Assembly (NCBI GenBank): GCA_012518815.1
Contig: JAAYRK010000030.1
Span: forward strand, 1 to 38,167
From: Candidatus Epulonipiscium sp.
GTDB lineage: Bacteria; Bacillota; Clostridia; Lachnospirales; Defluviitaleaceae
Direction: 5' to 3'
DNA length: 38,167 nucleotides
Part shown: positions 1,170 to 17,751 of the stretch, in pieces
How the letters are laid out: every line of letters begins with the position of its first letter
Position numbering within the stretch: position 1 is the stretch's first letter
The notes under the pieces: model-generated
What the model was told of the DNA's origin: nothing
Database searches by the model: none
The model's input: the letters and a program-made list of their open reading frames with translations, nothing else
Position numbers and translations under genes: made by a program

Positions 1170-1196
1170 AAAGGTCATGGCTTAGCCATGACCTTT
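1170..1196 (-). terminator. Hairpin between leader terminator and ABC gene
   Basis: A perfect 12-bp inverted repeat with a 3-base loop: AAAGGTCATGGC, TTA, GCCATGACCTTT. On the minus strand it is followed by TATAAATATTTTTT, so it may be a second terminator in tandem with the one at 1210-1239. Its 5' arm can also pair with the 3' arm of that upstream hairpin (11 pairs with wobbles, 1209-1219 with 1186-1196). Confidence 0.7.
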
Positions 1197-1205
1197 AAAA
1201 ATATA

Positions 1206-1239
1206 CAAAAAGGCCACGGGTAATAATACCCATGGCCTT
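1206..1239 (-). terminator. Attenuator-type terminator after the leader peptide
   Basis: On the minus strand the arms 1239-1227 and 1222-1210 form a 13-bp stem (one G-U pair) with a TTAT loop, directly followed by TTTTTG and further U-rich sequence. It sits 28 bases after the leader peptide stop and before the ABC transporter, so it would stop transcription ahead of the transporter unless the stem is broken. Confidence 0.85.
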
Positions 1240-1266
1240 AATTAATATATATCAATGAATTAATTG

Positions 1267-1377
1267 CTATAAAACAATAAATCCTTTTGAGGCAGGGCTA
1301 TTATTATTCAAAAAATTATATTTAGATAATTTATCAATTCTATTATTTCCATGAAAATGAATATTAATTAAAATCAT
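1267..1377 (-). CDS. Leader peptide ORF, 36 residues
   Basis: A 36-codon ORF (MILINIHFHG at the start, GFIVL at the end, TAG stop) with one of the best ribosome sites in the window: AGGAGG, 7 bases, ATG. It has its own sigma-A promoter, lies alone between that promoter and a terminator, and precedes an ABC transporter. The codons around NNNSPAS (1290-1306) are complementary to the 5' arm of the terminator, as expected for an antiterminator inside a leader ORF. B. subtilis bmrB is a known leader peptide upstream of bmrCD with such a role; I see the same layout here, not a confirmed homology. I do not recognise the peptide family. Confidence 0.75.
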   Translation of the reverse strand: MILINIHFHGNNRIDKLSKYNFLNNNSPASKGFIVL

Positions 1378-1414
1378 AATCCTACCTCCTTTTCTTAATA
1401 ATATATGCTATTGT

Positions 1415-1443
1415 ATAATAAATAGTCAAAATTCATTTGTCAA
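1415..1443 (-). promoter_or_regulatory. Sigma-A promoter of leader peptide/ABC unit
   Basis: Minus strand TTGACA (1443-1438), 17-base spacer, TATTAT (1420-1415). Predicted start of transcription is near 1408, giving a short 5' leader before the AGGAGG site. Confidence 0.8.
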
Positions 1444-1447
1444 TAGT

Positions 1448-1464
1448 TGTAATGAAAATGTAAT
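1448..1464 (+). promoter_or_regulatory. Candidate WalR box at leader/ABC promoter
   Basis: TGTAAT-GAAAA-TGTAAT, an exact match to the WalR (YycF) consensus TGTWAH-N5-TGTWAH. It starts four bases upstream of the -35 box of the minus-strand leader/ABC promoter, but reads on the opposite strand. The box at 34111 has the same reversed orientation. Confidence 0.5.
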
Positions 1465-17477: not shown

Positions 17478-17720
17478 AAAAAACCTTCCATCCTTTAACA
17501 GGACGAAAGGGTTCCTTTCGTTATACCACCTGATATAATCAAATATTACACATACATAATTATATGCTTTCCTGTTAACGGCGGAATTCCGTCAGAGCCT
17601 ACTGTTATTTCGGTCTGCCACTCCAAGGTGATCTTCCGTATTTCCTTTATCATGGGCTTCCACCATCCCCAATTCGCTATTGATTAGTGAAACACGTACT
17701 TGTCCTTTTCTTAGTGTTTA
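17478..17720 (-). promoter_or_regulatory. T-box riboswitch, isoleucine
   Basis: The leader RNA senses uncharged tRNA. On the minus strand: an AGTA box (17700-17697), the stem I apical region (GGGGATGGTGG, near 17665), a specifier ATC for Ile at 17632-17630 in GGAAGATCACC, and the T-box GGTGGTATAACG (about 17530-17519), whose UGGU bulge matches the ACCA end of tRNA-Ile. The antiterminator (17499-17532) pairs CAGG with CCTG and ACGAAAGG with its complement. The competing terminator (17482-17513) is followed by T6 at 17483-17478. The stop-or-go layout is complete. Confidence 0.93.
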
Positions 17721-17751
17721 CTCAAATATACAATATACAATTCAATATAAT

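Follow-up and report, generated by a model that had tools for sequence, protein, structure and literature searches.

What governs the ABC exporter gene that runs off one end of this clostridial DNA, and does the short open reading frame (ORF) ahead of it take part? In the window (the whole analyzed stretch of 38,167 nucleotides), a first-pass annotation had read the region before the gene as a leader-peptide attenuator, with a promoter, a short ORF, a terminator, and an antiterminator formed from ORF codons. This is still the best-supported reading, and both the leader and its pairing are kept in relatives. To the earlier account we add a pairing between the leader's own Shine-Dalgarno (SD) sequence and its late codons and a second terminator-like hairpin at 1196-1170.

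Layout of the locus

The leader, encoded on the minus strand, is flanked by a universal-stress/KdpD-like gene and the exporter gene. Its features, with six regions numbered in the order of transcription, are as follows.

1928-1500, minus strand: universal-stress/KdpD-like gene
1495-1473, minus strand: terminator of that upstream gene itself, ahead of the leader promoter
1443-1415, minus strand: promoter, TTGACA-17-TATTAT (consensus scan, 11 of 12 matches)
1390-1381, minus strand: SD sequence of the leader ORF, AGGAGGTAGG, just 5' of the ATG (region 1)
1377-1267, minus strand: leader ORF of 36 codons with a strong SD, MILINIHFHGNNRIDKLSKYNFLNNNSPASKGFIVL
1305-1289, minus strand: region 2, AATAATAGCCCTGCCTC, the whole of which pairs with region 3
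1239-1222, minus strand: region 3, AAGGCCATGGGTATTATT, 5' arm and loop of the first terminator (T1)
1221-1209, minus strand: region 4, made up of the 3' arm of T1 plus the base that opens the T run
1196-1170, minus strand: second hairpin (T2), AAAGGTCATGGCTAAGCCATGACCTTT, with a stem resembling that of T1 (regions 5 and 6; region 5 is 1196-1186)
1114-1107, minus strand: SD sequence of the ABC gene, AGGAGGGG, outside both T1 and T2
1100-3, minus strand: half-transporter gene, probably for the first subunit of a heterodimeric ABC exporter, 366 amino acids, leaving the window at its end

The ABC protein matches TmrB (5mkk, 1.2e-44), TM287 (3qf4), and BmrC/YheI (7m33, 8e-37). Judging by gene order, this protein most likely forms the first half of a heterodimeric exporter, because a second half-transporter follows directly in the four relatives for which downstream DNA was read. 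The source genome groups with Defluviitalea-like Clostridia; Defluviitalea phaphyphila is among its relatives, as is a "Ca. Epulonipiscium" metagenome-assembled genome.

The individual elements of the first-pass annotation were recovered. The promoter has 11 of 12 consensus bases (sites with 9 of 12 are frequent by chance in such a scan), and TTGACA-17-TATNAT likewise precedes the leader in two relatives (L011 and L013). The 36-codon ORF has the strong ribosome site claimed for it, and the terminator ahead of the ABC gene (T1, 1239-1210) consists of 13 bp with a loop of 4 and a T run. A search with the leader peptide gave no significant relative outside its own genome; the weak matches that were inspected lay in coding genes or at a terminator without an ABC gene.

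At the Rfam gathering score, the only family found in the window was a T-box leader (RF00230, 104.5 bits) at 17496-17721 on the minus strand, which adjoins an isoleucyl-tRNA-synthetase-like gene (17439-14320) on its 5' side; eight leader loci gave none. Subthreshold matches to Termite-leu (28.9 and 30.2 bits, threshold 51), near T2 of the window and opposite the leader L108, were judged to reflect chance or composition.

Competing pairings in the leader RNA

The antiterminator proposed earlier, 1290-1306 with 1221-1238, was reproduced exactly by RNAfold. The segment folded alone has a minimum free energy (MFE) structure of 15 bp with a one-base bulge and one internal loop, at -20.4 kcal/mol (the 2:3 pairing). 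T1 folds at -23.1 kcal/mol; a terminator far more stable than its alternative, which had been named as evidence against an attenuator, is therefore not what we see. With the start region of the window leader masked and the 3' arm of T1 not yet made, the MFE structure of the nascent RNA is 2:3, but in the full-length fold T1 returns as the MFE structure despite the masked start. As T1 wins the full-length fold even then, the switch must be kinetic; in these models, the ON state would have to be reached by kinetic trapping.

The SD of the leader ORF offers region 2 another partner: the stretch GAGGTAGG (1388-1381) within it pairs with CCTGCCTC (1296-1289) within region 2 (the 1:2 pairing). None of 200 shuffles of the window leader reached the strength of 1:2. 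Taken by itself, 2:3 in the window leader could arise at chance level (dinucleotide-shuffle P = 0.17).

T2 folds at -17.9 kcal/mol. It shares the stem of T1, and therefore the 3' arm of T1 can pair with the 5' arm of T2. In the window leader, this 4:5 pairing, in which CCGTGGCCTTT (1219-1209) of region 4 takes region 5 as its alternative partner, has 11 bp and -14.3 kcal/mol. A scan found a second hairpin in 29 of 45 leaders, some of them far away; where T2 is nearby, its stem is usually like that of T1. Across 31 leaders of both sequence families described below, native 4:5 pairing beat all of 20,000 cross-leader permutations. The likeness of the two stems could stem from duplication, and whatever its origin, failure of T1 would be expected to defuse T2 as well. 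On the plus strand, 1123-1242, opposite the tandem hairpins, gives a weak match (34.6 bits) to the leader covariance model, because inverted repeats read alike on both strands.

Conservation among orthologous loci

We read the upstream DNA of 58 orthologous ABC loci and curated the leader set by hand, with the pairing itself as one of the criteria. Of these loci, 46 have such a leader, with an SD and an ORF of 23 to 52 codons; the other 12 have no recognizable leader. A start codon follows the region 1 SD in every leader, and in 45 of the 46 a terminator lies 11 to 86 nucleotides past the stop codon (27 for T1 here). The genes upstream vary among species, while leader and ABC gene remain together. 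The first-pass annotation held that loss of the ORF or of the pairing in relatives would count against it; both are kept. Three orthologous ABC genes of this genus without the leader (L072, L073, and L018, in G106, G122, and G042) have instead a conserved 72-codon ORF upstream (MK..I.SYCKTEG.NS.HLMYEI...).

The same peptide was not found in these relatives; their peptides are unrelated. Among the 46 peptides there is no conserved residue or codon run, and the NNN of the window peptide is not kept. Even the closest pair illustrates this: in G001, whose ABC protein is 80% identical, the peptide shares only its first residues and NSPASKG, with the middle replaced and 11 residues added, and SD, region 2, and T1 are retained.

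What is kept is complementarity. Almost every leader has late codons complementary to its own SD, and the helix occurs in variants related by compensating changes (GAGGTAGG/CCTACCTC, GAGGCAGG/CCTGCCTC, GAGGTAGT/ACTACCTC, GAGGCAGA/TCTGCCTC, and GAGGTAAA/TTTACCTC); a further variant is the 16-bp GGAGGTAGGACTAATG/TATTAGTCCTATCTCT. The 1:2 pairing is significant singly in 37 of 41 leaders, exceeds cross-leader pairing in 20,000 of 20,000 permutations (with relatedness left in), and averages -15.4 kcal/mol versus -9.3 kcal/mol in 109 ordinary genes from the same loci. Helix positions 5 to 8 covary (P of 0.0012 or less). In contrasts made independent on the ABC tree, positions 5, 7, and 8 show a matching change in about 3 to 4, 2, and 2 to 3 cases, respectively, and the opposite never, and position 6 has two contrasts, which split; these contrasts are few, and no single position reaches 0.05.

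All three reading frames occur across region 2 (giving NPTS, TLPQ, and IPYL versions), and the ABC tree shows at least 11 changes of frame. It is therefore the RNA and not the peptide that is conserved, which argues for selection acting on the RNA. Together, these comparisons support the pairing of SD with late codons as the main conserved feature of the leader, probably acting as an anti-antiterminator.

Only 24% of leaders show a significant 2:3 pairing when tested singly. In the set of 41, native 2:3 exceeded cross-leader pairing in 20,000 of 20,000 permutations, which ignore relatedness, and it was stronger than in reversed-sequence controls (-10.5 versus -6.8; Wilcoxon, P = 4e-7).

Distribution beyond the orthologous loci

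An unbiased search for the leader pattern in 392 genomes of the order returned 25 matches, of which 11 have a start codon and a terminator. All 11 belong to the ABC gene, 10 lying directly upstream of it and 1 at a contig end that continues into the ABC contig. The remaining 14 or so are attributed to chance, since a reversed-pattern control gave a similar number and those inspected had no leader. Outside the order, a covariance model located more leaders that precede ABC exporters (L106, L108, L109, L110, L112, and L113). Its weak matches C57 and C19, in the source genome of the window, fell inside coding genes and were rejected. Another match (L107 in G430, 69.5 bits) has an SD, an ORF, and an ATGGG-type terminator; directly downstream there is no ABC gene, and the long ORF that comes next resembles a SipL-like protein.

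The covariance model also yielded a second sequence family, GGAGGTCGTG/CACGACC, with the same 1:2 arrangement. A pattern search for this family hit 11 sites across 10 genomes; in each an ATG closely follows the SD, and 6 of the sites lie before another group of ABC exporters. The 2:3 pairing is stronger in this family (mean of -15.8 versus -8.4 reversed). The family appears to place the same logic before other exporters across Clostridia. In L125 (G722), a leader of the same architecture but with another SD extension (GGTTGCG/CGCAGCC) precedes an MFS exporter.

Among the remaining sites of the second family, some stand before a GyrI-like gene paired with an MccF-like one and others before genes for small unknown proteins. 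Leaders of the form GGAGGTCGTG/CACGRCC before nonexporter genes are L111/L133 (G671), L131 (G519), and L139 (G470); here the leader is followed by genes for a GyrI-like protein and then an MccF-like peptidase, or for two small unknown proteins that have a QDHGFNLYKALEFS-like motif in common.

Proposed mechanism and alternative explanations

The anatomy of the leader, its pairings, and the conservation of those pairings are supported by the comparisons above. Building on them, we consider it likely, with a probability of roughly 75%, that the leader is a ribosome-controlled transcription attenuator in which regions 1 to 6 adopt one of two exclusive sets of pairings and which senses a ribosome held at the leader start. 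The OFF state would comprise 1:2, 3:4, and 5:6, and the ON state 2:3 and 4:5. If translation is absent, the SD would pair with the late codons, T1 would form with T2 as its backup, and the genes would stay off. Under fast translation, the ribosome would cover region 2, and T1 would again form. A ribosome held at the start codon or in the first few codons would instead cover the SD and leave region 2 free. Region 2 would then take the 5' arm of T1 before its 3' arm exists, so that T1 fails; we infer that this switching would take place cotranscriptionally. The idle 3' arm of T1 could in turn pair with the 5' arm of T2, T2 would fail too, and RNA polymerase would enter the two exporter genes. 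As the SD itself would be the sensor, the leader should respond when ribosomes are halted on the start codon or close to it, an arrest that many 50S-binding drugs would cause; the type of gene controlled and the analogy with known systems suggest that the signal may be such a drug.

Other explanations for this locus differ in what they take the conserved element to be. A translated-looking ORF ahead of an exporter would also suit peptide-specific arrest of the ErmCL type, in which nascent peptide and drug together stop the ribosome at a particular codon and the outcome depends on the peptide sequence; mef(E)L and ermK work in this way (PMC4335068). Since the peptide is not conserved, being unrelated between leaders and replaced in its middle even in the closest pair, and region 2 is kept in all three frames, such drug-specific nascent-chain arrest is improbable. 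Amino acid attenuation of the trp, his, or ilv type was rejected, as the 46 peptides hold no conserved regulatory codon run.

That the conserved parts are RNA would accord with control of the same fold by an RNA-binding protein or small RNA, or through the cell's general initiation capacity or growth rate. However, in every leader region 1 coincides exactly with the SD of an ORF that has a start codon, which indicates the ribosome as the sensor, and no Rfam family was found at threshold; we regard this explanation, too, as having little chance of being correct. We find it hardly credible that the hairpins are ordinary tandem terminators of the upstream gene beside a chance ORF, with no regulation. 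AT-rich DNA often contains terminators and short ORFs, and the ORF alone has no significant database relative, but the upstream gene already has its own terminator (1495-1473) before the leader promoter, the leader stays with the ABC gene while upstream genes differ between species, and 1:2 covaries.

Comparison with known attenuators

The first-pass annotation likened the leader to bmrB-bmrCD of Bacillus subtilis. The comparison, drawn on layout and mode of control, holds for the logic, which vmlR shares, but not for the arrangement. In the portion of the bmrB report available (PMC4191407), a translated leader ORF precedes a heterodimeric multidrug ABC exporter, with a terminator, an antiterminator, and a predicted anti-antiterminator; a short ORF with an SD before heterodimeric ABC exporter genes is present here too, and here computed pairing and conservation indicate that the three structures exclude one another. 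That text places the terminator inside the bmrB ORF, whereas it lies 11 to 86 nucleotides past the stop codon in the 45 leaders, and describes no SD-based anti-antiterminator, calling the function of the predicted one unclear. It describes the bmrB antiterminator as less stable than the terminator, which implies kinetic switching there too, and reports that preventing leader translation cut expression and abolished induction, which is what a 1:2 lock would predict.

In vmlR and cplR (PMC9226507, PMC10201436), a ribosome on an upstream ORF likewise blocks an anti-antiterminator, the antiterminator forms, and the terminator fails. The ORF there has three codons inside the anti-antiterminator hairpin, in contrast to 36 here (23 to 52 in relatives); its SD in vmlR is single-stranded ahead of that hairpin; and the genes controlled encode ABC-F ribosome protectors and have their own SD sequestered too, whereas that of the ABC gene here is free of T1 and T2. 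Streptococcus pneumoniae patAB resembles the present locus in its heterodimeric ABC exporter and predicted terminator/antiterminator/anti-antiterminator leader but differs in that the available part of the report (PMC4319486) mentions no leader ORF and gives a transcript leader of only 67 nucleotides. Leader peptide attenuation of drug resistance genes is also found in mef(E)/mel and ermK, the latter with two adjacent terminators, but with a conserved arrest peptide (MTASMRLR or MTHSMRLR) and a different RNA layout (PMC4335068).

Because a defining feature of bmrB and one of vmlR were sought here and not found, we do not file the leader with either. It appears distinct from both in that the SD is region 1, the anti-SD lies at the end of the same ORF, the terminator is past the stop codon, and the peptide is free to vary. 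We found no description of a clostridial leader of this design in the open-access literature.

Implications

More tentatively, and at somewhat less than even odds, these leaders may belong to a widespread clostridial class of attenuator, in which the SD is the sensing strand, an anti-SD in the last codons and the 5' arm of T1 compete, tandem terminators form a relay, arrest at the start codon is read independently of the peptide, and unrelated exporters (several ABC groups and an MFS pump) are served. Such a class would offer a testable logic by which many anaerobic Clostridia, from the gut and from the environment, could sense translation inhibitors and turn on exporters without a protein regulator or a conserved arrest peptide. 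It predicts that the inducing drugs would be those that hold ribosomes at the start, and that others would not induce. Its signature of SD, anti-SD, and terminator would escape annotation tools that look for conserved peptides.
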